A DNA stretch of 64,000 nucleotides from Ruegeria sp. AD91A (GTDB lineage: Bacteria > Pseudomonadota > Alphaproteobacteria > Rhodobacterales > Rhodobacteraceae). The stretch spans positions 1,798,001 to 1,862,000 of the forward strand of contig NZ_CP031946.1 in assembly GCF_003443535.1 (NCBI RefSeq), in the 5' to 3' direction. Position numbers and translations under genes: made by a program. Below the pieces are notes generated by a model. That model was given only the letters and a program-made list of their open reading frames with translations. It did not search any database and was not told the origin of the DNA. Below are positions 3,465 to 23,199 of this stretch, piece by piece (position 1 is the first letter of the stretch; the number at the start of each line of letters is the position of its first letter).

Positions 3465-3482
3465 TTTCCAAAGGAGTCACCC

Positions 3483-5708: not shown

Positions 5709-5829
5709 CTAAAAATTATGCTGCATTGCACAGCGCGCAACGCAGAAATGACCAAACACCCACTTCAATGTGAGGCCGATATGACAGATATTAATGCCCA
5801 AGGGAGGACCAACGTTTACGAGGGTCCAA

Positions 5830-6054
5830 ATGGCACACTCAGCAACACAATCTCACGCACGCTTTTCGCTGCCCGGTCTGATCGCGTCCATCACAGCATC
5901 AGTCTACGGGGCTCTGATCAGTGTGGCCGAAGCTCAATCGCGCGTTCGGCAAGTCGAATTCCTGCAATCGCTCAGCGACGAAGAGTTGAAAAAACGCGGC
6001 CTATCACGCGAACGGATCGTGCACCGGGTGTTTGCGGATTCAATCTGGCTCTGA
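5830..6054 (+). CDS. DUF1127-type small protein inside the urease operon
   Basis: 74 aa. The C-terminal half, LSDEELKKRGLSRERIVHRVF, matches the pattern of alphaproteobacterial DUF1127 proteins (aspartate/glutamate, then RGISR-like, then VF). The N-terminal half has a hydrophobic segment (LPGLIASITASVYGALISVAEA). An upstream in-frame ATG would add 12 residues; I prefer the inner start because the extension is low quality, though the GGAGG at about 5802 could serve either. It lies between ureC and ureE, where most urease operons have nothing. DUF1127 proteins elsewhere bind RNA or act in phosphate, carbon or stress regulation; no role in urease is known to me. Confidence 0.6.
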   Translation: MAHSATQSHARFSLPGLIASITASVYGALISVAEAQSRVRQVEFLQSLSDEELKKRGLSRERIVHRVFADSIWL

Positions 6055-6082
6055 CTATTTCTGCTCCAGAGGAGGCGACGGT

Positions 6083-6535
6083 ATGACCGCCCTGCTCTGC
6101 ACCGCACGCCGTTACTCGGATCATATGCACAGCGACTCCGCAGATTGCCTGTCGCTGACTTATGACGATCGTTTTTTGCGTCGCAAGGTTCTGACCTGTG
6201 AAAGTGGCGAACAAATACTCGTCGATCTGGCGCAAACCACCTCGTTGAACCACGGTGGCACGTTGATTCTGGACGACGGTCGCGAAGTGGAAATACAGGC
6301 TGCACCCGAAGCACTGCTTGAGGTTTCCGCTCCGGACCTGACACGCATCGCGTGGCATATTGGCAATCGCCACACGCCCTGCCAGATCGAAAAGGATCGT
6401 CTGCTGATCCAGATCGATCATGTGATCCGAGATATGCTATTGAAAATCGGAGCCGCAGTGCGCGAGGTGCACGAACCGTTCAACCCCGAAGGCGGAGCCT
6501 ATGGCCACGGCAGGACACATGGCCACGCCCACTGA
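6083..6535 (+). CDS. ureE: Urease nickel metallochaperone UreE
   Basis: 150 aa, started at the ATG just after GGAGGCGACGGT. It shows the UreE peptide-binding N-domain (LTYDDRFLRRKVL, DLAQTTSLNHGG) and the metal-binding C-domain (RIAWHIGNRHTPCQIE with its conserved central His), and ends in a His-rich tail ([10 protein letters not shown]). UreE delivers nickel to the UreDFG-urease complex. The gene overlaps ureF by 35 bases. Confidence 0.94.
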   Translation: MTALLCTARRYSDHMHSDSADCLSLTYDDRFLRRKVLTCESGEQILVDLAQTTSLNHGGTLILDDGREVEIQAAPEALLEVSAPDLTRIAWHIGNRHTPCQIEKDRLLIQIDHVIRDMLLKIGAAVREVHEPFNPEGGAYGHGRTHGHAH

Positions 6536-7172
6536 CGCCGATATCCTGACGCTGACCCAGTGGTTGTCTCCGGCATACCCTGTGGGGGGATTTGCTTATT
6601 CTCATGGGTTGGAAGCTGCAATTGACGAAGGAGCGGTCGCCAGTTCCCAAGACGCCGAAGCCTGGGTTTCAGATGCGCTGGAACACGGATCTGGATGGAA
6701 TGATACTCTGTTCGTGGTGTCCGCATACAACGCGCGGGACAAAGATGAACTTTTTAGCATCGATGCCAAGGCACGGGCTATCTGCGCGTCATCCGAAAGG
6801 AAAATGGAAACCGAACTGCTGGGACAGGCATTCGGGACTGTCACAGGAGAGGTCTGGGATATGGACATCCAACAGCTTTCCTACCCAGTTTCAGTAGGTC
6901 ACGCCGCGCGTCTACAAAACCTCCCCCTACTGCTGACGACGAAGATGTATCTACAAGCATTCGCAAGCAACTTGGTCGCTTGCGCAACGCGTCTTGTGCC
7001 GCTGGGGCAAACCGACGCGCAGAAACTAATCCGTAATTTGACACCGCTATGTGCTCATATCGTCGAAAAGGCGCAAATGGCAGGCTTGGAAGAATTGAGT
7101 TCGACTGCGTTCCTGACGGACATCGCGTCGATGAGACACGAAATACAGTATTCAAGGATATTCCGAACATGA
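6501..7172 (+). CDS. ureF: Urease accessory protein UreF
   Basis: About 223 aa, with the diagnostic [18 protein letters not shown] block near the N-terminus and the all-helical remainder expected of UreF. A second in-frame ATG six codons later ([10 protein letters not shown]) is an equally plausible start. UreF acts as a gate on the GTPase UreG within the activation complex. It overlaps ureE at its 5' end, and its TGA overlaps the ureG ATG. Confidence 0.93.
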
Positions 7173-7798
7173 GCAGTATGAACGGCCCTCTTCGCGTTGG
7201 CATCGGCGGTCCGGTTGGAGCCGGAAAGACCACTTTGACCGCTGCCTTGTCTGAAGCCCTGCGCGATGCTTGTTCAGTGAGCGTCATCACCAATGACATT
7301 TACACGCAGGAGGATGCCGAAGCGCTGGTGCGCATGCAGGTCCTTCCCCAAGATCGGATTATCGGCGTCGAAACGGGCGGTTGCCCACATACAGCAATCC
7401 GCGAGGACGCATCGATAAACCTTGCAGCTGTCGCTGAAATGCAGGAACGCCATCCCGATCTTGATATCGTTCTGATCGAAAGCGGCGGCGACAATCTGTC
7501 GGCTACTTTCAGCCCGGAACTCGCAGACCTTACAATCTATGTGATCGACGTCGCCGCTGGAGAGGAAATCCCGCGAAAAGGCGGACCGGCAATAACAAAA
7601 TCCGACATCCTGGTCATAAACAAAACCGATCTGGCGCCGCATGTAGGCGCTTCACTGGAGGTAATGGAACGAGATGCAGCCAGAATGCGCAAAGGGCGGC
7701 CATTTTTGTTCTCGTCCCTTCGCCACAAAAAAGGGGTCGACGCAATTGTTGACCTCTTGGTGAAGCAGGGTGGGGTAATAATTTCAGAAGTGAATTAG
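7169..7798 (+). CDS. ureG: Urease accessory GTPase UreG
   Basis: 209 aa, standard length. The chosen ATG overlaps the ureF stop (ATGA); a longer in-frame reading to about 7049 only extends into ureF. Motifs: P-loop [11 protein letters not shown], the metal-binding ETGGCPH (the CPH nickel site), [11 protein letters not shown], and the guanine-specificity motif NKTDLAP. It couples GTP hydrolysis to nickel insertion and lysine carbamylation in urease. It is the last gene of the operon. Confidence 0.96.
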
Positions 7799-8283: not shown

Positions 8284-9315
8284 ATGACGCAGCCAATAGA
8301 TCGCAAGCTAGACATAGTTGTTTTGGTGAGTTCGCATTTTAATGTTTCGGCGACAACGTCTTTCGTGGATCCATTCAGAGTAGCAAATTACCTGACGGGT
8401 TCAGCTCGATTTTCTTGGACTTATGTCTCAGACCCTGGTGGTCCAATTGAATCGAGCAGCGGCTTGGTCGTTGACACTGCCCCATTGGCGGAGGTGGTGA
8501 GGCGCAAGCCTTGGATGGTTCTGGTGAGTACAAGTTGGACACCTGAGCGTCACGGGACACCTCAGTTCAAGGTAGCACTACAGAAATGGGAATCGGGTGG
8601 AGCAATCGTTGGAGGTTTGGATACTGGCGCGATTGTTCTTGCGACGGCTGGACTACTCAAAGGAAAGACCGCAACGGTTCACTATGAACACATCGACGCC
8701 TTTGCCGAAACGGCCCATGACACCACCGTGTCAGAGAACATGATTATTATGGATGGAAAGATTTTCACTTGTTGCGGGGGTTCTGCAGCAACAGATCTGG
8801 GACTGCGGTTTGTACATTCCGTCGCTGGTGAGAGTATCGCCAATGCATCTGCTCGATACCTTTTTCATCACAATGTGCGCGGAGAAGGCCAATCACAGAA
8901 CCCCAAAGACATGGAACCGCTGGGGTACGTCACCTCTGGGGTGGTAAGGGACGCGATCGATTTGATGGAGGCGCACTTGGAAGCCACTTTGTCGATCCCT
9001 GAAATATCAGCGAGGTTGAAGATTTCGCAACGACAACTTAGCCGATTGTTTCAGCAATTTGTCCATAAGTCGCCGATCGAGTATTACCGCGACATTCGCC
9101 TTGATCGCGCGCGCGGATTAGTGACGCAAACTGAGCTTAAGTTCAGCGAGATTGCGGAAGCATCAGGGTTTAATGGACAGGTTCATTTCAGCCGGGCATA
9201 CCGCAAACGATTTGGATTGACACCCAGTGCGGATCGCATTGAAGGCCGCACCCCGTTTGAGTTTCGCGCTTGGCCGATGTTCAATCCCGACATCAAGTCC
9301 GAAGGTGTTGGGTAG
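8284..9315 (+). CDS. GlxA-family AraC transcriptional regulator (CdhR-like)
   Basis: 343 aa from the first ATG; a TTG 66 bases upstream would add residues without family resemblance. Residues 1-190 form a DJ-1/PfpI (class I amidotransferase-like) domain, for example VSSHFNVSATTSFVDPFR and GGLDTGAIVLATAGLL. The C-terminal 100 residues are an AraC/XylS pair of helix-turn-helices (ARLKISQRQLSRLFQQF; IAEASGFNGQVHFSRAYRKRF). Family members such as CdhR, GbdR and SouR control carnitine, betaine and related catabolism. Its 3' end overlaps the carnitine-dehydrogenase-like gene by 23 bases in convergent orientation, so it is the obvious regulator of that operon. Confidence 0.85.
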   Translation: MTQPIDRKLDIVVLVSSHFNVSATTSFVDPFRVANYLTGSARFSWTYVSDPGGPIESSSGLVVDTAPLAEVVRRKPWMVLVSTSWTPERHGTPQFKVALQKWESGGAIVGGLDTGAIVLATAGLLKGKTATVHYEHIDAFAETAHDTTVSENMIIMDGKIFTCCGGSAATDLGLRFVHSVAGESIANASARYLFHHNVRGEGQSQNPKDMEPLGYVTSGVVRDAIDLMEAHLEATLSIPEISARLKISQRQLSRLFQQFVHKSPIEYYRDIRLDRARGLVTQTELKFSEIAEASGFNGQVHFSRAYRKRFGLTPSADRIEGRTPFEFRAWPMFNPDIKSEGVG

Positions 9316-10225
9316 CTTTTTGCATCGCCGTAAGCATCTTGTCGCGTTGCGCTGATAACTCTTCGGTACTTTGCCCTTGAGTTTGATCGTTAATGCCATC
9401 GACCAGTTTATTGATGACATCTTCATCAAGACGAGGGTTGCCCAGGTCGTCCCACCAGCCATTGAATGTGTCCTTGAAATGGTCACAGAAGGCCCGCAGA
9501 CCGCCGTCGCCTGCACCCAGGTGGAAAAGCGTCGTCGGACCCATCGCGGCCCACCGCAATCCCGGGCCGGCCCACATCGCTTTATCGATGTCTTCGACAC
9601 TGGCAACGCCTTCAATCGCCATATGGACGGCCTCGCGCCATACTGCAGCTTGTAAGCGGTTTGCGACGTGTCCGGGCATGCCCTTCTTGATCCGGATCGT
9701 GACTTTACCCAGATCTTCGTAGAACGTCTCTGTTCGGTTCAGAACATCTGAACCGGTGGCGTCGTTCGCCGTCAACTCGACCAGCGGAATGAGATGTGGC
9801 GGGTTGAACGGATGACCTAAGATGAGCTTACTCGGATCGCCCCATCCCTGTTGGAGAGCCTCGAGTGTTAGGCCGGATGTTGAGCTTGAAACTATTGCAT
9901 CAGCGCTCAACTCTGGCTCAATTTCCGCATAGGTGGAATGTTTGATCGGCAACCGCTCCGGCACATTCTCCTGAATGAACTGCGCGTTTCGCACGGCCTC
10001 AGCTGCGGTCGGTGCAAAGGTGATCGCATCTCGGGTGGCGTGGCCAACTTGGCCCAATTCTTCCAACGCAGGCCACGCCTTTTCAATGTATTTACGGACG
10101 GATGCCTCAGCGTTCGGATCGGGATCAAATACAGTCACACTGCGACCCGACGCGAGAAACAGCGCTGCCCAGCTTGCCCCGATGACACCGGCTCCGAGAA
10201 TGGCTGTTCTTTCGATTTCCGACAT
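9293..10225 (-). CDS. L-carnitine dehydrogenase-like 3-hydroxyacyl-CoA dehydrogenase family protein
   Basis: 310 aa. The N-terminal Rossmann domain begins AILGAGVIGASWAALFLASG; then come ENVPERLPIK, SSSTSGLT and GHPFNPPHLIPLVE of the 3-hydroxyacyl-CoA dehydrogenase fold. The C-terminal GPGLRWAAMGPTTLFHL segment matches the pattern of L-carnitine dehydrogenases rather than acyl-CoA enzymes. The expected reaction is NAD-dependent oxidation of a beta-hydroxyl group, for carnitine giving 3-dehydrocarnitine. It is the last gene of the operon; its start overlaps the stop of the upstream SDR gene (TGATG). The neighbouring BKACE is the enzyme that would cleave such a beta-keto acid. The exact substrate is inferred. 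Confidence 0.72.
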   Translation of the reverse strand: MSEIERTAILGAGVIGASWAALFLASGRSVTVFDPDPNAEASVRKYIEKAWPALEELGQVGHATRDAITFAPTAAEAVRNAQFIQENVPERLPIKHSTYAEIEPELSADAIVSSSTSGLTLEALQQGWGDPSKLILGHPFNPPHLIPLVELTANDATGSDVLNRTETFYEDLGKVTIRIKKGMPGHVANRLQAAVWREAVHMAIEGVASVEDIDKAMWAGPGLRWAAMGPTTLFHLGAGDGGLRAFCDHFKDTFNGWWDDLGNPRLDEDVINKLVDGINDQTQGQSTEELSAQRDKMLTAMQKATQHLRT

Positions 10226-10965
10226 CAGAACAGTCCCGGATTCAGGGGGGAGGCCGCAGTCATACCACCGTCCACAGTGAACAGTTGGCCAGTCGCAAAA
10301 GACGACTCGTCAGAAGCTAGCCAAACAGCCATCGCAGCAATGTCTGCGGGCTTACCAAAGCGTTTGACCGCATGGCGTGCCAGCGCGTCTGATCTAGCCT
10401 TTTCCGGGTCATGGGCGAGTTCGAATGCTGCGTCCAGCATGCCCGTCTCAATCCATCCCGGGCAGATCGCATTACAGCGAACCGCTGGTCCATGGTCCAC
10501 TGCGATAGAGCGTGTGAGCCCATGCACAAACGCTTTTGACGCATTGTAGAGCGCCATCGACGGGTCCGCGGCATTGCCCGAGATCGACCCGATGTTGATG
10601 ATCGAGCCACCTTGCGACATTTCTGGAATGAAGGCGCGACAACAGTTAAAAACGCCTCGCGCATTTACGCCCATCACCAAGTCCCAATCCGCGTCCGAGC
10701 TTTCGGTAACAGTTTTTTCGACCTGAACGCCGGCGTTGTTTACAAGGATATCAGTCCCACCGACTATACTGACGATCTCTGCAACCGCTTCGGCGTCGGA
10801 CACATCCAGTGTGTACCAAACAACATTTTCCGGCAGATCATCGGGTTGAGGGCCGCGCCCGCAGGTAGTGACAGCGGTCCCTTCAGCCAAGAACGCCTCA
10901 ACAATACCCCGCCCAATGCCCTGCTTGCCGCCTGTGACAAAGGCGCGTTTTCCAGCCAACCGCAT
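10225..10965 (-). CDS. Short-chain dehydrogenase/reductase
   Basis: 246 aa classical SDR. The NAD(P) motif is TGGKQGIGRGI, followed by NNAGV, the Ser of the catalytic set in INIGSISGNAAD, YNASK (Tyr and Lys) and the PGWIETGM loop. The DV dipeptide at the end of the beta-3 region (TLDVSD) is usual. It oxidises or reduces an alcohol/ketone of unknown identity. Start and stop overlap both neighbours by TGATG, so it is coupled to the aldehyde dehydrogenase and the carnitine-dehydrogenase-like genes. Confidence 0.85.
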   Translation of the reverse strand: MRLAGKRAFVTGGKQGIGRGIVEAFLAEGTAVTTCGRGPQPDDLPENVVWYTLDVSDAEAVAEIVSIVGGTDILVNNAGVQVEKTVTESSDADWDLVMGVNARGVFNCCRAFIPEMSQGGSIINIGSISGNAADPSMALYNASKAFVHGLTRSIAVDHGPAVRCNAICPGWIETGMLDAAFELAHDPEKARSDALARHAVKRFGKPADIAAMAVWLASDESSFATGQLFTVDGGMTAASPLNPGLF

Positions 10966-12383
10966 CAGTGTGCCACCATGACATGACGGATCGCAGTATA
11001 AGCGTCCAATGCATAGACCGACATATCACTGCCTGTTCCCGAGCCTTTCATCGCGGCCCATGGCATCTCGGGCGTCGCAACCCCATGCGTGTTTACCCAG
11101 GTGAATCCATAGCGCAACTTGGACGTCATTTGCATTGCTCTCCCAACATCTCGTGTCCAAACCGATGAGGCCAACCCGTAAGGTCCGTTGTTGGCGATCT
11201 TCAACGCATCTTCTGCCTCGGAAAAACGAGAGACAGTTACAACAGGTCCAAAGACCTCGTTGCAGGCAATCTCTGCAGTGTTGTCGACATTGGCAATGAC
11301 TGTCGGCTGGTAGAAAAAGCCGTCTTCTTCGCCAGACGCCCCACCGGAAACGATTTCAGAGCTGCAGCGTGCGCGATCGACAAAACCAGCCACACGATCC
11401 CGCTGTGCCGCAGAGACAAGCGGGCCCATTTCCGTTCCTTCAGCTTTCGGCGCACCAGTCTGGATCTGGCCAACCTGATCGGCAATCGCGGCCACAAGTT
11501 TGTCGTAAACACTGTCTGCAACCATCACGCGGCATGGCTGTGCGCAGTCCTGACCGGCATTGAAGTAGCTGCCATATCGGATCGTCTCGGCCACAGCATC
11601 GAGATCAGCATCATCAAAGACAATGACCGGCGCCTTGCCGCCCAATTCCAGATGAACGTGTTTAATTTTCTGGGAAGCAGCCCGCATTGCAGCCATGCCT
11701 GTCGCCGGAGAACCCGTAACACTGATCCCTTCCATCTGTGGGCTGTTCATCAGGGTATTTCCCACGCCGGGCCCGCGACCATGGATCACGTTTAGCACGC
11801 CTTTTGGCAGAACACCTTGTAACAATTCTGCAAGTCGCAAAGTAGATAGCGGCGTGATCTCGGAAGGTTTCAATACCACCGAACATCCTGCCGCAATTGG
11901 TGCGGCAATCTTCCAGGACGCCATCATCAGCGGATAGTTCCACGGCGCTATGGCCGCGACAGGGCCAATGGGGTCGCGCCGGATCATCGAGGTATGACCC
12001 GCGACATACTCTCCAGAGGCAGACCCCATCATGGTGCGCGCAGCCCCGGCGAAAAAGCGAAAGACATCGATCGTCAGCGGCATTTCGTCATCATGAGCCG
12101 ATGGCCAGGGTTTTCCCACATCCAGGCTCTCAAGTTCTGCCAACTCCTGGCCGTTCGCCTCGATAACTTCAGCTATGTGAAGCAATATCGCAGCGCGTTC
12201 CGCGGGGGTCGTACCCGAAAAGGTCTCAAATGCCTCTGCCGAACCGCGCACTGCCGCCTCGGTCTGTGCATCGCCGGCCTCTTTTACTGTGCAGATGATT
12301 TCGCCTGTTGCAGGGTTCAGGATTTCCAACGCCTCTTCGGTACCTTCGACCAATTCGCCATTGATCAACATTTTCGTCTGCAT
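10965..12383 (-). CDS. Aldehyde dehydrogenase, gamma-aminobutyraldehyde/betaine-aldehyde dehydrogenase type
   Basis: 472 aa, started at the ATG behind GAGGAGACGCTT. Motifs are complete: [19 protein letters not shown], the catalytic Glu in ELGGKAPV, the catalytic Cys in [10 protein letters not shown], and EVFGPVV. Sequence character ([46 protein letters not shown] and RHVMV near the end) is very like E. coli PatD/YdcW, which oxidises gamma-aminobutyraldehyde. A role on a trimethylammonio- or other amino-aldehyde fits the operon; malic semialdehyde from a carnitine-type Rieske reaction is another candidate. Substrate not determinable from sequence. Confidence 0.85.
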
Positions 12384-12393
12384 AAGCGTCTCC

Positions 12394-13326
12394 TCAAAAC
12401 CCAACCTGATCGCCGCCTTTTAGTGCGAGCCGCATGCGCGCTTCTGCTGGCGTCGCGACCGTAAGGCCAAGGTTTTCTACGATTGATCGGATGCGCGTAA
12501 CCTGCTCCGCGTTAGATTTGGCCAACTCACCTTTGCCAATGAACAGGCTGTCTTCGAGACCAACCCGAAGGTTTCCGCCGCGCAATGCACTTTGGGTTGC
12601 AAAAGGCATTTGGTAACGGCCAGCGGCAAGGACAGACCATTCGTAATTCTCTGCCCCGAACAGCTTGTCCGCTGTGTTGTGCAGGTGGGTTAGATGGTCT
12701 GCATCCGCGCCAACGCCACCCAAGATGCCGAACACCATCTGAATGAAGAAAGGCGGTTTGATCAGGCCTTGATCCACGAACCATTTGACGTTGTAGAGAT
12801 GTCCAAGATCATAGCATTCGAACTCGAACTTGGTGCCATGATCACCACCGAGTTTTTCAATGGCGTAACGAATTGTTTTGAAGGTGTTGGGAAAGATGAA
12901 GTCCTCTGTCATCTCCAGGAATGGCTGTTCCCAATCATGCTGAAACTCGGTGTATTTCTGCAGCATCGGAAAGATGCCAAAGTTCATAGAACCCATGTTG
13001 AGAGATGCCATCTCTGGGCTAGTCGAAGTTGCGGCCAGCAGGCGCTCATCCATCGACATACCCAAACCGCCGCCGGTAGAGACATTCATCACCACATCAG
13101 TGGACTGTTTGATCACAGGCAGGAACTGCTGAAATAGCTCGGGTCGGGGGTCGGGTTTGCCGGTCTCTGGATGCCGTGCGTGCAAGTGAATGATCGACGC
13201 GCCGGCTTGTGCCGCTTCAATACTTGCTGTCGCGATCTCGGCAGGCGTAATCGGCAGATGTGGTGACATCGACGGCGTATGGATGCCCCCTGTGGGTGCG
13301 CAGGTGATGATGACGGATTTGGGCAT
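12394..13326 (-). CDS. Beta-keto acid cleavage enzyme (BKACE, DUF849 family)
   Basis: 310 aa, begun at the ATG that overlaps the SDR stop. The fold is the Zn-dependent DUF849/Kce TIM barrel: [12 protein letters not shown] at the first strand, the Zn-binding [21 protein letters not shown], and [11 protein letters not shown] near the cofactor site. BKACE enzymes condense a beta-keto acid with acetyl-CoA to give acetoacetate plus a new CoA ester; in carnitine catabolism they turn 3-dehydrocarnitine into betainyl-CoA. Linkage to a carnitine-dehydrogenase-like gene supports that type of reaction. No thioesterase gene is seen beside it. Confidence 0.85.
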
Positions 13327-14120
13327 CAGAGCTTCATCTGCTGCACTTGTGCAGACAGCCCCCCGTCCAGAACCCACAACTGGCCAGAGGCATACCGTGC
13401 TTCGTCGGAAGCAAGCCAGTTAACCAGGTTTGCAATGTCCTGTGGCGTCCCGTAGGTGCGCGTCGGATGAACATCGCGCACGGCCTGTTGCAGCGTTTCA
13501 ATATTGCCGCCGGCGCCACCAGATCCATCTCCGTTGAAGAAGCTCTGCAGCATTGGGGTATCGATATAGCCGGGGCAGATGGCGTTTACGCGGATACCTT
13601 CGGGGCCATGATCGCAAGCCATTGCGCGGGTCAAAGCGTGTACTGCACCTTTGGTTGCGCAATAGGCCGCAAGGCCCGGATCAGCGATGAACCCATCGTA
13701 GGAGCCAAAATTGATGAGGCTTGCGCTATTCCCTGTCTTCGCCGCTTCGCGCATCAACGGGATGGCATATTTCGAGGTCAGGAACGTGCCCGTGGAATTA
13801 ACCGCAAAGCTTTGGTTCCATTCCTCCAGCGTGGTCTCTTCAACCGTTTTTTCGATCTCGATCCCGGCCGCGTTTACTAAGATGTCCAACTTTCCTTGTG
13901 TGGCGCGCACATGATCCATCGCCGCAACCGAGTCTGCCTCTTGAGTCACATCCAGCTTAACAAAATGACTGCCATCTTCGTCGTGCTGGTCTAACGATCC
14001 TTCCGGTGTGAGGTCAGCTGCAAATACTGTTGCCCCTTCTTTTAGGAACCGCGCGACAATTGCACGCCCGATGCCACCGCGCGCGCCGGTCACAAGGGCA
14101 ATTTTTCCGTTCAGCATCAT
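13326..14120 (-). CDS. Short-chain dehydrogenase/reductase
   Basis: 264 aa, with two adjacent ATG codons at the start. Motifs: TGARGGIGRAI, DILVNAAG, the Ser in NFGSYDGFIAD, YCATK and PGYIDTPM. It is a second classical SDR, distinct from the one downstream (it carries a Gly-rich insertion GDGSGGAGG after PMLQSF). It starts 5 bases after the sulfatase stop and its own stop overlaps the BKACE start. A dehydrogenase step on a hydroxylated intermediate is likely; the substrate is unknown. Confidence 0.84.
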   Translation of the reverse strand: MMLNGKIALVTGARGGIGRAIVARFLKEGATVFAADLTPEGSLDQHDEDGSHFVKLDVTQEADSVAAMDHVRATQGKLDILVNAAGIEIEKTVEETTLEEWNQSFAVNSTGTFLTSKYAIPLMREAAKTGNSASLINFGSYDGFIADPGLAAYCATKGAVHALTRAMACDHGPEGIRVNAICPGYIDTPMLQSFFNGDGSGGAGGNIETLQQAVRDVHPTRTYGTPQDIANLVNWLASDEARYASGQLWVLDGGLSAQVQQMKL

Positions 14121-14125
14121 TGGCT

Positions 14126-15652
14126 TCAATCCTTCAAAGGCGGATAGCGGTAGCGACTCGCGGCCACCGTCCAATCCAAGTTGTTGCGGACATATTGCTG
14201 ACTTGCATCAGATGGTGGGTTGTAATCCCATGGCTCGCTGGCACCTGCTTCCATCGCGGCATGTAACGCGCGGCGTGATCTCTGCGTGGCGATAATCTTC
14301 TTTCGCAATTCACTACCGTCCCACCGTTCCGCGACTTCGGCTGCAAAGCGGGCTGCCGGGTCAGCATAGTCAGGGTCTGTGGCAACATTTTTTGTTTCCA
14401 GCGGGTCAGCGTTTAGGTCGTAGAGCTGCGGCGGGTCGCTGTCACAATGAATGTATTTTAAAGGGCCGCGCCGGATCATGATTACGGGATAGCCCGTCAT
14501 CTCAGCGCAATACTCACCGATGGCTTCATCAACTGGGTCGTATTCGCCACGGGCCAAAGGCATTAGACTGCGGCCGTCGATCGGTTCTCCGATCATCGTC
14601 TCATTACCGCCGCCGATATCGATAAAGGTCGGCAGCAAATCAACCAGTGACACTGCATTCTGCGTTGTCCCCACTACAACGCCCGGCCCGGCCATGACCA
14701 GTGGAACGCGCGCAGAGTGTTCAAAGAAATTCATTTTATACCACAGCCCACGTTCGCCCAGCATGTCGCCGTGATCCGCAGTTACAAACACTATGGTGTT
14801 GTCCAACTCGCCCATCTCTTCGAGGGTCTGAATCAGCTCTCCGATCTTGCTGTCGAAGTAGCTGACATTGGCCAGATAAGCATGACGCGCGCGACGGATT
14901 TCCTCGTCGGTGAGCGGCACATATGATGCTTCGATCCCATCCATCAATCGACGCGAGAACGGGTCCTGATCCTCTGTCGCGGGTGTAAAGGACGGCATGT
15001 CGATCTCATCGTCCGAATAGAGATTCCACCATTCGGGCCGCGCAACGTAAGGATCATGCGGGTGAATGAAGCTTACCACCATCGCAAAGGGCGCACTTTT
15101 CCCACGTGCTTTGTCTCGGGCGACATCAAAGAGCCAGCGTTTGGCGGCAAAGCCAACTTCATCGTCATAGTCAATCTGGAAGGTCGCATGGGCCAAACCG
15201 CTTTCCTTGACGGTCTGCATATTATGATACCACTTATCGATCCGCTCATCAGGCGCTTCCCAATCCGGGGTCCATGCGAAATCTGCGGGGTAGATATCGG
15301 TTGTTACCCTGTCTTCGAACCCATGCATTTGATCTGGGCCTACGAAGTGCATCTTGCCTGAAAGGCAGGTCCTGTAGCCTAGCGATTTAAGGTAATGCGC
15401 AAATGTCGGCACCGAGGCTCTGAACTCGGATGCATTGTCGTAAGCTGCAATGCGGCTGATGTGCTGGCCCGACATAAAAGCAAACCGTGAAGGTGCGCAG
15501 AGTGGAGAATTGCAGTAAGCCGCATCAAAGCGCATGCCGCGCGCGGCCAACGCATCAAGGTGGGGTGTCTTGGCAACCTTGTGCCCGTATGCCCCAGTAA
15601 AGTGCGGTGCCAATTGGTCCGCCATTATCACGAGGATGTTTGGCCGCGTCAC
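14126..15652 (-). CDS. Choline-sulfatase-like sulfatase (BetC type)
   Basis: 508 aa type I sulfatase. The N-terminal NILVIMADQ holds metal ligands, and LCAPSR is the C-x-P-S-R motif whose Cys becomes formylglycine. CLSGKMHFVGPDQMHGFE, IHPHDPYVARPE and TADHGDMLGERGLWYK are all strongly BetC-like. The C-terminal segment WDYNPPSDASQQYVRNN is the choline-sulfatase tail domain. It would release sulfate from choline-O-sulfate or a similar ester. The start is GTG, overlapping the Rieske gene stop as GTGA, so it is firmly within this operon and not in a betABC cluster. No signal peptide, so the enzyme is cytoplasmic. The ester cleaved may differ from choline sulfate given the neighbours. Confidence 0.85.
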   Translation of the reverse strand: MTRPNILVIMADQLAPHFTGAYGHKVAKTPHLDALAARGMRFDAAYCNSPLCAPSRFAFMSGQHISRIAAYDNASEFRASVPTFAHYLKSLGYRTCLSGKMHFVGPDQMHGFEDRVTTDIYPADFAWTPDWEAPDERIDKWYHNMQTVKESGLAHATFQIDYDDEVGFAAKRWLFDVARDKARGKSAPFAMVVSFIHPHDPYVARPEWWNLYSDDEIDMPSFTPATEDQDPFSRRLMDGIEASYVPLTDEEIRRARHAYLANVSYFDSKIGELIQTLEEMGELDNTIVFVTADHGDMLGERGLWYKMNFFEHSARVPLVMAGPGVVVGTTQNAVSLVDLLPTFIDIGGGNETMIGEPIDGRSLMPLARGEYDPVDEAIGEYCAEMTGYPVIMIRRGPLKYIHCDSDPPQLYDLNADPLETKNVATDPDYADPAARFAAEVAERWDGSELRKKIIATQRSRRALHAAMEAGASEPWDYNPPSDASQQYVRNNLDWTVAASRYRYPPLKD

Positions 15653-16770
15653 GCAACACCTTTTGCGTAAGCATCCAGGACTAGGCCATGGAAGTGATGT
15701 ACGGCGTGCTCGGACTTGCCGGAACCATCCGGGTCATTGACGATCCGACCTTGGGTGAACGCAGGTGTGTTCATCCCGCGCTGCACACTTTCGACAAGGC
15801 TGATATCTTCGACCTGAAGAACTTCGTCCAGATAACGAATTGCGTCCAACTCCATCGCGTCGGGTTCCGGCGTCTCAAGGAAGAAGTCATAAGTTTCAAG
15901 CGTCCGATCTGGCCCAACTGGGATGATGTTCAACACGATCATGCTTGACCGTCCCGGATACCGCATCAGGCAGGTCGTCGGATAGAGCCACCAAACCGCA
16001 TGGGTTTTCACCGTGGCATTCGACACGTCATAAGCGGAATTCGGACTTGTGCCCGCGTCAGCCATATGGCTGGAGTAAATGCCGTAGGTCGTAACCTTGT
16101 AGGTGTCCATATCAACGAGGTCACAAAAATCCTTGTGCGCTGTAGGACAGTGATAGCACTCTAGGAAGTTGTCCACGACGTTCTTCCAGTTGGATTTGAT
16201 GTCATAGGTCAGACGATGGCCAAAAGTGAGTTGATCCACATCCGGCGCCCAATGGCGCACTTCGGTTTCCAAGTTGCCGGATTGTTCTGACAAAGAAGCT
16301 GCCATTGGATCCAAATTGACGAAAACAAAGCCGCAAAATTCCTCGACCTGCACTCCATCGAGACAAATCTCGTCTTTCCTGAAATCTTCGAGGTTTTCGG
16401 TATGTGGTGCACGGGCCAATTGCCCATCAAGTTTATAGACCCAAGCATGATAGGGGCACATGATCCGCGTTGTATTGCCTTCGCCCGACAGCAATTCATG
16501 CGCACGGTGTTTGCAGACATTATAAAAGGCACGAAGCTTACCCTCTTTATCACGCACGACTGCAATGGGTTGGCCGGCAATATCCACTGTTACATAAGAT
16601 CCCGGCTCACGTGTTTTCTCGACATGACATACCCACTGCCAAGTTTTGGAGAGGATGGCGCAAAGGTCTGCGTCAAACCACTTGCTCTCGGTATAGGCAG
16701 CAGCCTGCAATGAGCTGGAGCGCGATGGATCAGCATGATAGCCAAAGAAAATTGTATCTGAATCAGTCAT
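15649..16770 (-). CDS. Rieske non-haem iron oxygenase, quaternary-ammonium type
   Basis: 373 aa oxygenase alpha subunit. The Rieske [2Fe-2S] ligands are in CKHRAHELL and MCPYHAW (C-x-H and C-x2-H). The mononuclear iron region reads DNFLECYHCPTAH, giving the two His ligands; the residue three before the first His is Glu, where most Rieske oxygenases have the bridging Asp. Glu is also found in carnitine monooxygenase CntA/YeaW and related betaine/stachydrine demethylases, so the substrate is probably a quaternary amine. No reductase gene is in the window next to it, so electrons must come from elsewhere. It is the first gene of the tightly coupled operon. Confidence 0.85.
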   Translation of the reverse strand: MTDSDTIFFGYHADPSRSSSLQAAAYTESKWFDADLCAILSKTWQWVCHVEKTREPGSYVTVDIAGQPIAVVRDKEGKLRAFYNVCKHRAHELLSGEGNTTRIMCPYHAWVYKLDGQLARAPHTENLEDFRKDEICLDGVQVEEFCGFVFVNLDPMAASLSEQSGNLETEVRHWAPDVDQLTFGHRLTYDIKSNWKNVVDNFLECYHCPTAHKDFCDLVDMDTYKVTTYGIYSSHMADAGTSPNSAYDVSNATVKTHAVWWLYPTTCLMRYPGRSSMIVLNIIPVGPDRTLETYDFFLETPEPDAMELDAIRYLDEVLQVEDISLVESVQRGMNTPAFTQGRIVNDPDGSGKSEHAVHHFHGLVLDAYAKGVA

Positions 16771-17153
16771 GATTGCGTCTCCGATGTTAGGTTAAACCTA
16801 TTTCAAGTGGGATTCGGAGCTATGTTTTATCAGCCGCTAGTTTGATTATTTTCGCCAAGCATTTGGCTTTCGGGGACACCGTATTATTCCATCAGCATTG
16901 CATTTAGCTGACAAGCGAATGCTGCGTACTTGCCTGCACTTGTTCAGCGGTCATTCGTGCACATTGCAGCAATCGGCAAAATGGGCTCACTGCAGTCTTT
17001 CGCTGCACTCGGCGTGAACGAGTTCTACGCGGACAAAGCTGCAATTTCACCGCCGTTTGAACCATCGCAAAGTCTTTTCACAGCATCAACTTATACCGAT
17101 CCACACATTGCACCCCTAGTCTCATCTGCTCTTCAGGTTCCGTGTCACAATAC
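16771..17153. promoter_or_regulatory. Promoter region between the ThDP enzyme and the Rieske-led operon
   Basis: 383 bases without a convincing gene; frames here lack ribosome sites. It should contain the promoter of the Rieske-led operon. A perfect inverted repeat, TAGGTT-A-AACCTA, lies at 16788-16800, only 18 bases upstream of the Rieske ATG, where a repressor or activator could bind. The part between 16800 and 16880 is AT-rich. The GlxA-type regulator is the natural candidate ligand, but that is inference. Confidence 0.5.
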
Positions 17154-18713
17154 TCATGCTGGCGGGGGACACACAACTTCGATCAGAGATGGCCCGTCGC
17201 TGGAGAGACCGGCAGAGAGCGCCTTCGCAAAGCTGTCCATGTCATCTGTGCGTGTCCCAGGAACACCGTGGCCTTTCGCCAGAGAAACCCAGTCCAGTGT
17301 CGGGTTCTCCACGTCAAACATAGCCTGAGCATTCTGACCATAGCTCGCTACACCGACATTTGTGAGTTCATCCCGCAGAATTTGATACCCGCGGTTTGCA
17401 AATACGATCACCGTGACGTCGAGATTTTCCCGCGCCATAGTCCACAGTGATTGTAGCGTGTACATGGCCGACCCATCCCCAGTCAGTGCTATGACTTTTC
17501 GGTCCGGGCAGGCGGTGGCCGCACCCGTTGCGCAAGGCAAACACAGCCCAATCGCTCCGCCGGTGCCAGCAAGCAGATCATGCGGGCGAGCGGTGGCTGT
17601 CGGTGGAATGACGTAAAACCCGGACGTCACGGATTCATTGCAGATGATCGCATTTTCCGGGATCAATGCTGCCAACGCCAAACCAACTTTTTCGAGGGTT
17701 AACTGCCCGCTGGGAACGTCCGGCAGATCGAGCGGATGGGTTTCTGCCACCGTTTTGCTTGTGACCCCAACCGCGTCGGCGAGCGCTTGCAGCGCCCATT
17801 CGATATCATCTGTGGGCGTGCACAAGTCCGTAATGGGGCAATACGGCGGTTCGGGCACGCTCGGTTTCCCGGGATAGGCAAAAAAGGCGACTGGCCTGTC
17901 TGTGCCAAGCAGAGTGATCGAAGACGTTGCTTCAAGCTGAGCGATCTTGGGCGATATCGGATAGACCAGTTGGTCTAGCTTTGCTGTTCCTGCGCCTTTG
18001 GAAATGCGCGGTATCAGAGTATCGGCCAACAACCGGCACCCTGTCGCGGCAGAAATTTTTCCAGCCAGTCCACGCTGCAGCCCAAACAGGGCTGATCCGC
18101 CAATCATCAGCGCGGCGTTCGGCGTCACAAGACGGGCTGCCGCGGCCTCTATGTCGCCTATTGACGGTCGATGGAGGTTTCCTCCGATGTCCAAAAGGTT
18201 TGCCGCTGCGTTCGCTTCGTTCCAAGCTGTGTCGGCAGGCAAGACAAGCGTCGCGACCCGGCCGTTTTGCGACCGGGCGGCCTGAACCGCAGCCGCTCCA
18301 TTCATAGCCACGTCGGTGGAATTGGATGACACGCGCGTCCAATGACTGACCGCTTGGCTGATACCGAGGATGTCTCCCTTCAATGGGCTTTCGTACCGGA
18401 GGTGATGCGTTGCGTGATCACCCACGATGTTCACGATCCCGGACCCCGCTTTCCTGGCATTGTGCAGATTGGCAAATGCGTTGCCAAAGCCAGGCGCAAG
18501 ATGCAGCAGCGTACCCGCAACATCACGTTTCATGCGAAAAAACCCATCCGCCGCACCCGTTGTTCCGCCTTCAAACAGGCAAAGAATGCAATTCATCTCC
18601 GGGTGTTCATCCAAGGCAGCAACAAAGTGCATTTCCGAGGTGCCGGGATTTGCGAAGACTGTATCCACGCCATTGTTCAAAAGGGTTTTTACGAGTGATT
18701 GAGCGCCGTTCAT
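17154..18713 (-). CDS. Thiamine-diphosphate enzyme, acetolactate synthase/benzoylformate decarboxylase-like
   Basis: 519 aa with the three-domain ThDP layout. The N-terminal PYR domain opens GAQSLVKTLLNNGVDTVFANPGTSE and has the catalytic-type Glu in LFEGGTTGAADGF. The C-terminal domain has the ThDP/Mg motif GDGS followed about 27 residues on by Asn in FANRGYQI. The N-terminal part is like the PQQ-independent IlvX/MdlC-like proteins often annotated as acetolactate synthase large subunit, not biosynthetic IlvB. It should decarboxylate or carboligate a 2-keto acid. It lies on the same strand upstream of the Rieske operon, 383 bases away, so joint function is plausible but not proved. Confidence 0.75.
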   Translation of the reverse strand: MNGAQSLVKTLLNNGVDTVFANPGTSEMHFVAALDEHPEMNCILCLFEGGTTGAADGFFRMKRDVAGTLLHLAPGFGNAFANLHNARKAGSGIVNIVGDHATHHLRYESPLKGDILGISQAVSHWTRVSSNSTDVAMNGAAAVQAARSQNGRVATLVLPADTAWNEANAAANLLDIGGNLHRPSIGDIEAAAARLVTPNAALMIGGSALFGLQRGLAGKISAATGCRLLADTLIPRISKGAGTAKLDQLVYPISPKIAQLEATSSITLLGTDRPVAFFAYPGKPSVPEPPYCPITDLCTPTDDIEWALQALADAVGVTSKTVAETHPLDLPDVPSGQLTLEKVGLALAALIPENAIICNESVTSGFYVIPPTATARPHDLLAGTGGAIGLCLPCATGAATACPDRKVIALTGDGSAMYTLQSLWTMARENLDVTVIVFANRGYQILRDELTNVGVASYGQNAQAMFDVENPTLDWVSLAKGHGVPGTRTDDMDSFAKALSAGLSSDGPSLIEVVCPPPA

Positions 18714-18857: not shown

Positions 18858-19595
18858 TCAGGCCATTCCTTTTGGCGGAGCCAGAATTTGGAGCGAAAGC
18901 ACTCGTACTTGAGGTGAGATAGGCACGGCACGGTCCTGCATCTTGATCTCAACGCCCTGCTTGGTTTCCTTCACGCCATCGAACAGGAGGCGCGCAGCGG
19001 GGCTGAACTTGCGGGTGTCGGCCATGCGGGTGATTTCCATCCCCATGCCGGAACACTCGGGACAGGCCGGGTTTGGTGGATCTGTGAGGCGATAACCGTA
19101 GCCACCAGCGTCGTCAGGGATGCGCGGATCTGCGATTATACCTGACGTGGCAGCGTCTCGCAGGTCGCCGTCCGAGAACATCGAGAAGATCACTTCGGCC
19201 TTGCGCTCCGTGAACTCCGGTTCTGTTTTCCACTGGTACTGATGGTCGATGCCGTAGCAGTAACGGCAAGGCGCGATGATGTGCTGTGTAAGCTCGTTGG
19301 GGTCTGCGAGGGCGATTTGGGCCCTGAGGTTCACAATGCCCTCTGCATCCAGCATGGCCTTGCTCTCGACCTGTTTGCGGCCCTCAGCGATGGCGCGGGC
19401 AACCTTAATATTGCTAAACAATCGCGAACCTTGGGCCTCTCCTGATCCCTCTGTATATCCGGCGTCGGTTGCGGCCTGTTTCGCGTTTGGATCAGCGATG
19501 CAGGCAAGCACAAAGGCCCGCTGACGCGGGTTCAGGCCGAATTTGTCGAGCCAGGCGGTGTCTGCCAGTGCTGGATTGCCTGTTGGGCTGCTCAT
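18858..19595 (-). CDS. Phage terminase small subunit-like protein
   Basis: 245 aa. The N-terminal 80 residues (LNPRQRAFVLACIADPNAKQAATDAGYTEGSG, shown here in pieces: LNPRQRAFVL and AATDAGYTE) match the Terminase_2 DNA-binding region. Two Cys pairs, CRYCYG and CPECSG, could bind zinc in the middle. The C-terminus ends soon after QVRVLSLQ. In an intact phage the large terminase and portal genes would follow downstream; here a metabolic gene does. It is therefore a prophage remnant, lying about 1 kb from the 3' end of a tRNA-Leu gene, a common phage attachment site. Confidence 0.72.
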   Translation of the reverse strand: MSSPTGNPALADTAWLDKFGLNPRQRAFVLACIADPNAKQAATDAGYTEGSGEAQGSRLFSNIKVARAIAEGRKQVESKAMLDAEGIVNLRAQIALADPNELTQHIIAPCRYCYGIDHQYQWKTEPEFTERKAEVIFSMFSDGDLRDAATSGIIADPRIPDDAGGYGYRLTDPPNPACPECSGMGMEITRMADTRKFSPAARLLFDGVKETKQGVEIKMQDRAVPISPQVRVLSLQILAPPKGMA

Positions 19596-20111
19596 CCCGG
19601 GGGCGGTGCCTCTTGCGCCTCAAAACCGCCCGCAAGACAGGCCAAAAAATCTGCATTAAGCAAAAAAATGTAAACGCAAAAACCTTAGCACCACCACCAA
19701 TGTATTTGTCTAGCTCTTTCATTAATGACTTCCGACTGACTTCCGGCCTGACTTCCCGACCGAATACTCGGATGGTGCGCTTTTATTTGCGTCATGTTCA
19801 CTTCGTTGCTGCATATTGCGACACGTTTACTTAGTGAATGAGACAAAGGAGAACGGCACATGGGAAAGTCCATTGGTCGAGAAAGTGTCTAGCCCTGAGC
19901 TTACGATCCACCAATGCAACAAACAGTGGAAATGGCACTCATCAAACGGATCATCCCCCAACAAAGTTCGTCGAACCTGCAGTTCTCAACCGATGCTACG
20001 CAACCTCCCACAAGGCCCAATTGACAGGCTCCAAGGCAGATACGGCTCACCGCACAGCAAACCCCATAGAAACCGCCAATGCGGGCTCCACAATGGCTCC
20101 AAAGATCGATC
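19596..20111. other. Gene-free stretch in the phage remnant, with a triple direct repeat
   Basis: No credible gene in 516 bases. At 19726-19761 three near-identical units in tandem begin TGACTTCC (TGACTTCCGAC, TGACTTCCGGCC, TGACTTCCCGACC). They could be operator half-sites for the nearby Cro/C1-like regulator or simply repeat-derived noise. The region between 19660 and 19720 is AT-rich. Confidence 0.4.
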
Positions 20112-20423
20112 ATGAAGATACGCATTAAAGAAATCCGGCAAGCCAAAGGGCTTACTCAGGACGAACTTTCAGTGAAGGTTGATTTATCTCGATCTTATTT
20201 GGCGCAATTAGATAAGGGGACACGTCAACTCTCCACCAAGAAGCAGGCTATTATTGCCGCAGCCCTTGATGTGGAGCCAACTGAGATTGAAGATTTAAGC
20301 GCACCCGACAAAGACGACGAGGCGCTTCTTCTCGAGGCGTTCCGTGCCCTTTCCCCCGAACAGCGAAAAGCTTGGCTCGAATGGGCGAACATAGCTAAGG
20401 GGTCCGCCCTGGATAAAGAGTGA
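20112..20423 (+). CDS. Cro/C1-type (XRE) helix-turn-helix regulator
   Basis: 103 aa. The N-terminal 65 residues are a classic XRE domain: IKEIRQAKGLTQDELSVKV, the recognition helix LSRSYLAQLDKG, then QAIIAAALDVEPTEI. The C-terminal part (DDEALLLEAFRALSPEQRKAWLEWAN) is a short helical tail often seen in small phage or plasmid regulators. The start is the ATG before KIRIKEI; an upstream extension is not conserved-looking. It lies between the terminase remnant and tRNA-Leu, so it is probably phage-derived. A 46-codon frame follows after its stop with no gap. Confidence 0.8.
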   Translation: MKIRIKEIRQAKGLTQDELSVKVDLSRSYLAQLDKGTRQLSTKKQAIIAAALDVEPTEIEDLSAPDKDDEALLLEAFRALSPEQRKAWLEWANIAKGSALDKE

Positions 20424-20564
20424 ATGTTTTATACACCATGCCAATTGGATCAACCGATCTTGTGCACCGAGAAAAACGGCAGATTAAAGATTCACCGGGG
20501 CACGGACTGCAAGAAGGTGAAGGTCGAAGATCTGGAAAACCAGATCGAAGGAAAGGCCGCATAA
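20424..20564 (+). CDS. 46-aa charged small protein downstream of the XRE gene
   Basis: A short frame whose ATG directly follows the XRE gene's TGA, so it would be translated by coupling. The product is highly charged and has three cysteines (PCQLDQ, ILCTEKNG, GTDCKKVKVEDLE), with no hydrophobic segment. I do not recognise the family; small proteins of this look are common in prophages. Base composition and the lack of rare-codon runs are compatible with coding, but length alone gives little support. Confidence 0.42.
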   Translation: MFYTPCQLDQPILCTEKNGRLKIHRGTDCKKVKVEDLENQIEGKAA

Positions 20565-20662
20565 TCGGCGGGTATGAAAACCCAGATATGGGGAAGAATG
20601 TGGGGCAGCTTAGGTTTCCCTTTTTTAATTCCCTTATTTTACAGGCGTTTAAAATAAAGTTT

Positions 20663-20748
20663 TGGTGCGGGCGGTGGGACTCGAACCCACACGGGCATAC
20701 GCCCTTCAGATTTTAAGTCTGATATGTCTACCATTCCATCACGCCCGC
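20663..20748 (-). tRNA. tRNA-Leu (anticodon UAA)
   Basis: Read on the minus strand, the acceptor stem GCGGGCG pairs with CGCCCGC, followed by discriminator A and an encoded CCA. The D arm begins TGATGG, the anticodon stem-loop CAGACTTAAAATCTG carries TAA, a variable arm GGGCGTATGCCC follows, and the T arm GGGTTCGAGTCCC is canonical. The long variable arm fits a class II leucine tRNA. Its 3' end faces the phage remnant, in keeping with integration at a tRNA. Confidence 0.96.
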
Positions 20749-21330: not shown

Positions 21331-22257
21331 ATGGATCAAATTTCTTTTTCTCGACGCAGTTTCATGTTCAATGCCACTTGCCTCGCGGCACTTGGAGCTC
21401 AAGCCAGGATCGTACAGGCAGAGTTGCAGCTCGGTCCTTCAGCCCGAATTACAACCCTGTCAGACGGACACCTGTCATTGCCACATGATGTTGTTTTCAG
21501 AGCCATGCCCAAAGAGGAGCTCGAGCAAATCCTGATCCGCAATCAAGCGGACGCCACCAAGTACGAGCCAGAGTGCAACCTCACGCTCTATAGAGATGAT
21601 GAAAACACCGTGCTTTTCGATGCTGGAGCGGGGCCAGACTTCATGCCCACGTCCGGCAAACTGGCGGAAACTTTTGAAAAAAACGACCTGTCACCCGAGA
21701 GTGTCACGCATGTGGTTTTCACCCACGCACACCCTGATCATATCTGGGGTGTTCTGGATGATTTCGACGACCTTCTTTTCCCAAATGCGACGCACCACAT
21801 TGGGCGTAAAGAATGGGATTATTGGTGGAACCCCTCAACGGTGGACACGATTGGCGAAGATCGCACCGCGTTCGCGGCCGGTGCCAAACGGCGATTGGAA
21901 GCAATTGAGGATCAGGTCGCGTTCTTTGAGGATGGGCATGAGATACTTCCGGGTATTGCTGCACGGGCAAGCTTTGGGCACACGCCCGGTCACATGGCCT
22001 TTGAGCTTCGAAATGGGAATGAGTCGGTGATGGTTGTCGGCGACGCGCTCGGAAATCCTCACGTGGCTTTTGAACACCCCGATTGGCACAGTGGAACGGA
22101 TCAGGATCCCCAGATCGCCGCAGCTGCGCGTTACTCACTGCTGGATCAGGTTTCGGAAGAGAAAATGAGAATAGTTGGCTTCCACCTGCCGAACGGTGGA
22201 ATTGGCCGCGTCGAAAAGACCGGCTCGGCCTACAGATTCATTGGAGAGGCGTCATGA
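21331..22257 (+). CDS. Periplasmic metallo-beta-lactamase-fold hydrolase with Tat signal
   Basis: 308 aa. The N-terminus SRRSFMFNATCLAALGAQA is a twin-arginine signal. The MBL metal motif THAHPDH is intact, with further ligands in GHTPGHMAFE and in VVGDALGN, and a late His in GFHLPN. The fold is that of a periplasmic Zn hydrolase. Paracoccus sox clusters carry two such genes, soxG and soxH, and this pair beside the sox genes may correspond to them, though here it is convergent with the operon. No ribosome site is obvious because an operator-like sequence occupies that position. The substrate is unknown. Confidence 0.8.
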   Translation: MDQISFSRRSFMFNATCLAALGAQARIVQAELQLGPSARITTLSDGHLSLPHDVVFRAMPKEELEQILIRNQADATKYEPECNLTLYRDDENTVLFDAGAGPDFMPTSGKLAETFEKNDLSPESVTHVVFTHAHPDHIWGVLDDFDDLLFPNATHHIGRKEWDYWWNPSTVDTIGEDRTAFAAGAKRRLEAIEDQVAFFEDGHEILPGIAARASFGHTPGHMAFELRNGNESVMVVGDALGNPHVAFEHPDWHSGTDQDPQIAAAARYSLLDQVSEEKMRIVGFHLPNGGIGRVEKTGSAYRFIGEAS

Positions 22258-23198: not shown

Positions 23199-23199
23199 C

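Follow-up and report, generated by a model that had tools for sequence, protein, structure and literature searches.

Which compound is degraded by an operon that joins a Rieske oxygenase and a choline-sulfatase-like enzyme to relatives of the carnitine degradation enzymes? Such an operon lies in Ruegeria sp. AD91A, within a stretch of 64,000 nucleotides (contig NZ_CP031946.1, positions 1,798,001 to 1,862,000; hereafter the window). Its seven minus-strand genes encode, from 5' to 3', the Rieske oxygenase, a BetC-like sulfatase, a short-chain dehydrogenase/reductase (SDR1), a beta-keto acid cleavage enzyme (BKACE), an aldehyde dehydrogenase (ALDH), a second short-chain dehydrogenase/reductase (SDR2) and a carnitine-dehydrogenase-like (CDH-like) 3-hydroxyacid dehydrogenase. 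Our results indicate that this is probably an operon for compounds of the quaternary ammonium class, equipped with an optional desulfation module. That it is dedicated to the catabolism of a carnitine-like onium zwitterion or its alcohol, being neither carnitine nor choline-O-sulfate, we consider an even bet.

The seven genes are as tightly linked as an earlier, preliminary description of this DNA had claimed, and open reading frame (ORF) calling, translations and family scans agree on it. The joints range from a 4-base overlap, between the Rieske and sulfatase genes, to a 10-base gap, between BKACE and ALDH. The sulfatase and SDR1 genes are 5 bases apart, and the joints SDR1/BKACE, ALDH/SDR2 and SDR2/CDH-like are 1-base overlaps. 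These lengths depend on the likeliest start codons, which were picked by eye from the translations. A GlxA-type AraC-family regulator indeed faces the operon, and the 3' end of its gene overlaps the CDH-like gene by 23 bases.

To see which of these genes belong together, we examined 118 loci, namely the 80 that ranked highest in Rieske similarity among 556, and 38 that were added later. The set includes contigs of metagenome-assembled genomes. Rieske relatives were kept at an identity of at least 65% (lowest 68%) over 85% of the length, giving 89 loci (80 plus 9 of the later ones); seven of the others hold distant Rieske relatives, treated separately, and 22 were taken for other genes. Neighbouring genes were counted within 10.5 kb at the 70 of the 89 loci with full flanks, the 19 with short flanks being excluded. 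The loci are mutually related, and therefore these counts are not independent. The loci come from Rhodobacterales, Hyphomicrobiales, Granulosicoccaceae and one conjugative Pseudomonas plasmid; the nearest Rieske relative is 99% identical, and the host is a Ruegeria near R. atlantica.

Both SDR genes (69/70 each), the CDH-like gene (66/70) and the regulator gene (65/70) accompany the Rieske gene at these loci, the BKACE gene is found at 55, the sulfatase gene at 52 and the ALDH gene at 47. Based on these frequencies, the Rieske oxygenase, the two SDRs, the CDH-like enzyme and the regulator form a core, to which BKACE, ALDH and sulfatase are added as modules. Because this gene set reappears at most of the 70 loci, its grouping is more than chance, and the earlier view of one conserved unit holds. 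A survey of 390 Rhodobacterales genomes, which scored the few top candidates of each genome, points in the same direction. The Rieske gene was found in 24 of them, and a CDH-like gene with at least 60% identity in 23 of these 24, versus two of the 366 genomes without the Rieske gene. One of those two, G561, has a remnant cluster with a Rieske fragment. This was also the one remnant cluster among the Rieske-less CDH-like relatives at 50% identity or more (seven of eight genomes, L126 to L132, with G653 left out). At L132 the CDH-like relative adjoins a BKACE gene of another group, and the other contexts in this set gave no information on the substrate. Decayed relatives were seen in two genomes: the G561 locus (L126) retains SDR2 and the CDH-like gene besides its Rieske fragment, and the Rieske gene of G401 (G401:C7:250387-251502) is interrupted by one in-frame stop.

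The modules are not distributed at random. On the Rieske tree, sulfatase presence requires 10 changes, and all of 200 label shuffles required at least 13. Transporter and ferredoxin-reductase labels, for genes introduced below, are structured as well (0/200 shuffles as low), ALDH less so (4/200), and BKACE shows no clear structure (24/200). A random loss of the sulfatase or Rieske gene, which the preliminary description had named as an argument against a shared pathway, is thus not what we observe: the sulfatase follows the phylogeny, and the Rieske gene closely co-occurs with the CDH-like gene. The sulfatase can be kept as an operon member in that its presence is structured, and has to be qualified as optional, being missing from 18 of the 70 loci and, among the matches listed, accompanied by no Rieske gene in 11 of the 390 genomes. 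BKACE has to be qualified likewise, given its tree pattern. Fisher tests that ignore relatedness associated the sulfatase with the transporter (p 0.0012) and the reductase (p 7e-7), and not with BKACE (p 0.74) or ALDH (p 1); a paired tree test of sulfatase and transporter had too few informative pairs.

The Rieske oxygenase, whose nearest solved structure is the carnitine monooxygenase CntA, carries the signature of group V, clade Va: Cys206-X-X-Cys209, the bridging Glu205, an aromatic residue at 203 and His208/His213/Asp323. The CntA residue numbering and the rule for the clades are those of PMC7948474, according to which, in the part available, the aromatic residue at 203 sets clade Va (CntA, OxyBAC) apart from the demethylating clade Vb. 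F203, E205, C206, C209, H213, Y295 and D323 are present in 89/89 relatives, and H208 in 88/89. The enzyme is not a GbcA, as indicated by 150.1 bits against a cut-off of 670 for NF058607 and by the phenylalanine at 203. It also lacks the pocket signature of CntA (Tyr203, Phe247, Phe258, Tyr295, Phe319), of which Tyr295 alone is kept; the other four positions are F, Y, H and L in all 89 relatives. With Tyr/His/Leu at 247/258/319 throughout, the pocket is therefore uniform within the family and unlike that of CntA. It is identical in loci with and without the sulfatase, as should be the case if the sulfatase's sole role is to let a sulfated form enter the route.

The distant Rieske relatives (seven loci, 42-47% identity) have Phe203 in six cases and Tyr295 in none. 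Their neighbourhoods (L104 to L110) are different and gave no information on the substrate. In one of them, from a 1.4 Mb genome (L109 7581-10252), a trimethylamine monooxygenase gene directly precedes the Rieske relative (43%, Phe203).

The sulfatase is a homologue of choline sulfatase, as proposed before, and passes the choline-sulfatase model TIGR03417. Aligned against the choline sulfatase of S. meliloti, the formylglycine site C54 as well as H201, K309 and the ammonium-reading E386 are kept in 63/63 in-cluster copies and in 12/12 copies from elsewhere. Mutation of Glu386 costs the S. meliloti enzyme about a thousandfold of its efficiency on choline-O-sulfate, according to the available part of PMC5870055. 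The C-terminal tail signature of BetC (Leu499/Asp500/Leu502) is absent from the in-cluster copies. The tunnel residue L499 is replaced by tryptophan in all 63 of them, and in all 12 outside the cluster; D500 is a threonine in 58/63 (D in 1), and L502 an alanine in 62/63. Positions 500 and 502 differ in the genome's standard BetC as well (N, V). Together, the retained Glu386 and the exchange of Leu499 for tryptophan suggest that the sulfatase should act on a sulfate ester bearing an onium group, through an altered access tunnel.

Where is this module absent? Nine of the 18 sulfatase-free loci form one clade (support 92) from Paracoccus, Mesorhizobium, Labrys, Phyllobacterium and Shinella, genera that are mainly non-marine, and this clade gained the ferredoxin reductase once. 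The remaining nine are scattered on the tree, and several are marine according to their record titles. In seven of the 52 loci with the sulfatase, its gene is located before instead of after the Rieske gene, yet inside the cluster. Among the matches listed for the 390 genomes, the sulfatase clade occurs in 31 genomes at 62-100% identity, and the next matches reach at most 50%. Within the 24 Rieske genomes, the sulfatase adjoins the Rieske gene in 19 (in G510 split over contig ends), a 64% copy is located elsewhere in G725, and four have no member of this clade among the matches listed. Outside the cluster (12 loci, L114 to L125) the sulfatase is mostly a single gene amid unrelated genes, and its substrate could not be read from these 12 contexts. 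At L122, L123 and L125, from related genomes, a sulfatase (61-64%) with no adjacent Rieske gene has a ProXWV-type transporter and a gene for an acyl-CoA dehydrogenase in its vicinity. Marine members of the cluster mostly have the sulfatase, a hint that the substrate occurs in the sea in sulfated form.

Is this, then, a carnitine or choline-O-sulfate operon? The preliminary description had invoked carnitine chemistry, and this part was not supported. The CDH-like protein scores 256.6 bits against a cut-off of 592 for NF005716, and 253.1 against 414 for NF005471; so far below the cut-offs, it is a relative of carnitine 3-dehydrogenase, not a member. The genome has its own carnitine 3-dehydrogenase/thioesterase fusion (797.6 bits, cut-off 592), beside its own BKACE and with a GlxA-type regulator gene nearby. 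The two BKACEs are 35% identical, and they fall into different groups: that of the window passes NF053538 with 497.5 bits (cut-off 430), the carnitine one fails with 205.9 and has 3c6c as its nearest structure. The window BKACE thus lies outside the carnitine type; it matches 8rip (E 1.7e-112) and groups with BKACE15 of Paracoccus denitrificans, for which the available part of PMC11961710 gives confirmed substrates that include beta-ketohexanoate and 3,5-dioxohexanoate, and none with an ammonium group. A third BKACE of this genome (L111 7081-8151) is 57% identical to the window's and passes NF053538 in another gene context, adjoining branched-chain-type transporter genes (labelled by eye) and a second 3-hydroxyacid dehydrogenase.

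For choline-O-sulfate the picture is similar. The genome holds a separate betI-like/betC pair (G000:C1:259164; the betI label comes from reading its sequence), the standard BetC is 47% identical to the window sulfatase, and family scans found no betI, betA or betB among the seven genes. Because separate standard genes for both compounds exist in this genome, carnitine and choline-O-sulfate are unlikely substrates. A carnitine pathway or a bet operon as the sole reading was rejected on account of the model scores, the residue changes and these standard copies.

Genes that join the cluster elsewhere offer further hints. A ProXWV/ChoXWV-type (betaine/choline) ABC transporter is found near 12 of the 70 full loci. 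The binding protein of one of these (L031) has 4xz6, a betaine/proline-type structure, as its nearest solved structure (E 3.9e-58); we take 4xz6 to be the trimethylamine N-oxide-binding protein of R. pomeroyi. An AndAa-type ferredoxin reductase follows the CDH-like gene at nine loci. On the conjugative Pseudomonas plasmid the order is regulator, Rieske, SDR, BKACE, ALDH, SDR and CDH-like gene; next come genes for a PDR/VanB-family reductase, a thioesterase and a choline-type binding protein. This is the only one of the 70 loci with a VanB-type reductase nearby, and also the only one with a thioesterase, which matches the C-terminal part, the thioesterase half, of the model for carnitine 3-dehydrogenase with 112.3 bits. 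By family scans, the seven genes of the window include no thioesterase, and the partner reductase of a CntAB-type two-component system is likewise absent from them. At two loci (L013 12685-14291 and L031 15945-17551), two adjacent genes of the metallo-beta-lactamase fold are located within the cluster or directly behind it.

Taken together, the clade Va residues of the Rieske enzyme, Glu386 of the sulfatase and the linked transporters make a quaternary ammonium, or sulfonium, compound the supported substrate class, in line with the earlier proposal. The enzymes could act on it as follows. The sulfatase would free an alcohol from its sulfate ester (step 1), and one SDR together with the ALDH would oxidise the carbinol to a betaine acid (step 2). 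The Rieske oxygenase would add a hydroxyl group, with a reductase supplied from outside the seven genes (step 3). The CDH-like enzyme would then form a beta-keto acid (step 4), from which BKACE and acetyl-CoA would produce acetoacetate and a shorter onium-acyl-CoA (step 5). A thioesterase such as the one encoded beside the cluster on the Pseudomonas plasmid would finally hydrolyse the onium-acyl-CoA; the second SDR has no step in this route.

We prefer this route because every gene but one SDR receives a step, and because a gene island of Arctic SAR11 unites the same activities. According to the gene descriptions in the available part of PMC12421898, the island combines a betaine ABC transporter, alcohol, choline and aldehyde dehydrogenases, a gamma-butyrobetaine dioxygenase, a carnitine dehydrogenase, a BKACE and a thioesterase. 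The Rieske enzyme would take the place of the gamma-butyrobetaine dioxygenase, which is not a Rieske protein. No sulfatase is named for the island in that part of the source. We infer substrate, order and regiochemistry from enzyme families and gene context, and the order of the steps is rather doubtful.

Several points weigh against the route. CntA, the nearest characterised clade Va enzyme, oxidises the carbon beside the nitrogen and releases trimethylamine, so that step 3 would be a new regiochemistry. BKACE groups with enzymes for which the substrates confirmed so far are free of ammonium. It is missing from 15 of the 70 loci, and ALDH from 23, meaning that steps 2 and 5 are not always local. 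The minority of loci with a transporter nearby does not include the window's cluster, thioesterase and reductase are not among the seven genes, and we know of no sulfated compound of this kind.

The best surviving alternative, although unlikely, starts at the head group. Here the Rieske oxygenase would act like CntA and cleave the C-N bond, which sets free trimethylamine and yields an aldehyde. ALDH would convert the aldehyde to a hydroxy-dicarboxylate, the CDH-like enzyme would form an ammonium-free beta-keto acid, and BKACE would split it. The BKACE fits such an order, as it passes the model of the neutral-substrate BKACE15 group that the genome's carnitine BKACE fails, and so does the invariant Phe203, the mark of the clade that is home to CntA and OxyBAC (PMC7948474, in the part available). 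Among the few top candidates scored in each genome, however, trimethylamine monooxygenase (Tmm) is not enriched in Rieske genomes (5/24 versus 66/366) and has no match in the window's genome, so that release followed by oxidation via Tmm was rejected; release without oxidation still fits. Furthermore, the plasmid thioesterase resembles that of carnitine 3-dehydrogenase, which argues against this alternative.

Alternatively, the operon could be a second set of the usual enzymes, by which scavenged choline-O-sulfate and carnitine would be converted to glycine betaine. The sulfatase lies above the choline-sulfatase equivalog cut-off and keeps Glu386, and Pseudomonas aeruginosa is known to degrade carnitine by means of carnitine dehydrogenase and BKACE (PMC12482172, as far as available). 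Scavenging of this kind is nevertheless improbable, as the genome already has dedicated genes for both compounds, the CDH-like enzyme and BKACE fall outside the carnitine groups, and the sulfatase is divergent with a changed tunnel residue. In R. pomeroyi, which may or may not have the cluster, a betC knock-out alone ends growth on choline-O-sulfate (available part of PMC4744692). Finally, a quaternary ammonium core with an unrelated, hitch-hiking sulfatase would explain why the sulfatase is missing from 18 of 70 clusters and occurs Rieske-less in 11 genomes (among the matches listed), but is very improbable given its structured presence, its retention inside the cluster in the seven loci where it precedes the Rieske gene, and the 4-base overlap in the window.

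If the operon does serve a carnitine-like onium zwitterion, which one might it be? A five-carbon carnitine homologue or a sulfonium twin such as gonyol (5-dimethylsulfonio-3-hydroxypentanoate), free or O-sulfated, is a long shot at best. In this case, the CDH-like enzyme and BKACE would yield dimethylsulfoniopropionate (DMSP)-CoA or beta-alanine-betaine-CoA, and the cluster would be, to our knowledge, the first gene set for gonyol breakdown. Genes of the DMSP-lyase cupin family overlap the Rieske gene by 4 bases at two loci from different lineages (L027 11116-11766, nearest to DddQ, and L060 3754-4374; 34% mutual identity), which is what a DMSP-type product would call for. Speaking against gonyol, the cupin occurs in only two of 89 loci, the core is also present in non-marine bacteria, and we know of no such sulfate ester from algae. 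In addition, four gonyol-fed strains, which may or may not carry the cluster, produced no dimethyl sulfide, and some of the strains produced methanethiol, according to the available part of PMC7221440.

How far is the system new? Every enzyme comes from a known family, and the logic resembles that of known betaine pathways. With the carnitine-to-glycine-betaine operon the cluster shares a 3-hydroxyacid dehydrogenase, a BKACE, a nearby GlxA-type regulator and, in the Pseudomonas copy, a thioesterase; it differs in that both enzymes fall outside the carnitine groups and in having the Rieske oxygenase, ALDH, SDR pair and sulfatase. Like the CntAB operon (Acinetobacter, YeaWX of E. coli), it combines a group Va Rieske enzyme with an aldehyde dehydrogenase, and some relatives have a linked reductase. 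Here, however, the Rieske enzyme is only 36-39% identical, Phe stands for Tyr203 and Tyr/His/Leu for Phe247/258/319, and the window's cluster has neither a D-malate dehydrogenase-type gene nor the reductase. The betIC(BA) operon has a TIGR03417 sulfatase with Glu386 in common with it, and differs in its betI, betA and betB genes; the window sulfatase is only 47% identical to the genome's own BetC and has tryptophan in place of Leu499. TsaMBCD also joins a Rieske enzyme to further dehydrogenases (TsaC is an SDR, TsaD an aldehyde dehydrogenase), but for an aromatic substrate. No description of this gene combination was found in searches of open-access literature, in agreement with the preliminary description, which knew of no pathway uniting all these enzymes with a choline-sulfatase homologue. 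Apparently new are the combination itself, the modular sulfatase and the uniform Rieske pocket.

An important flow of nitrogen, carbon and sulfur from algae to bacteria takes the form of quaternary ammonium and sulfonium compounds, many of which have no known degradation genes. From the gene content, we infer that the substrate may be algal and sulfated. The compact operon is present in 24 of 390 Rhodobacterales genomes and also in soil and plant bacteria, with the sulfatase in most marine members. Identifying its substrate would name a new metabolite flux and put the automatic choline-sulfatase label to the test; it may also bring to light a reaction that is new for group Va Rieske enzymes.

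Table 1. Features of the operon and its immediate surroundings, in window coordinates.
Feature	Position	Strand	Basis
Group Va-type Rieske oxygenase, first operon gene	15649..16770	-	CntA nearest solved structure, E 5.9e-74
Choline-sulfatase-type (BetC-like) sulfatase, optional module	14126..15652	-	TIGR03417 705 bits, cut-off 433.45
SDR oxidoreductase 1, core gene	13326..14120	-	ORF to 14174, likely ATG 14120; in 69/70 full loci
Beta-keto acid cleavage enzyme (BKACE)	12394..13326	-	ORF to 13377, likely ATG 13326; PF05853; NF053538 497.5 bits, cut-off 430
Aldehyde dehydrogenase, aminobutyraldehyde type	10965..12383	-	ORF to 12404, likely ATG 12383; NF010000 666.8 bits, cut-off 615
SDR oxidoreductase 2, core gene	10225..10965	-	in 69/70 full loci
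Carnitine-dehydrogenase-like 3-hydroxyacid dehydrogenase, no fused thioesterase, core gene	9293..10225	-	NF005716 256.6, NF005471 253.1, both below cut-off
GlxA-type AraC-family regulator, convergent	8284..9315	+	ORF from 8218, likely ATG 8284; best model GbdR 192.5 bits, below cut-off 480
Gap upstream of Rieske gene, no listed minus-strand gene	16771..17153	-	position only
Thiamine diphosphate enzyme, neighbour only	17154..18713	-	NF005760 662.5 bits, cut-off 363

Judged by position alone, the gap upstream of the Rieske gene likely is the home of the operon promoter. Scans of promoter consensus (7 matches versus 6.5) and terminators (11 versus 11.2) were no richer than in shuffled sequence. 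The thiamine diphosphate enzyme beyond this gap, which had been drawn into the system before, ends 383 bases from the Rieske gene and does not occur at any of the 80 related loci or of the 70 full ones; therefore it is a neighbour, not a pathway member.

To the left of the cluster, plus-strand urease genes (UreD, urease alpha, UreG-type GTPase) occupy window positions 2345-7798. To the right of the thiamine diphosphate enzyme gene, a tRNA-Leu and genes for a phage terminase small subunit and a phage-type repressor-like protein (18858-20748) suggest a phage remnant. Further on (21331-32349), genes for a cytochrome c and a 5-nucleotidase-fold protein, along with two of the metallo-beta-lactamase fold, may mark a sulfur-oxidation region.

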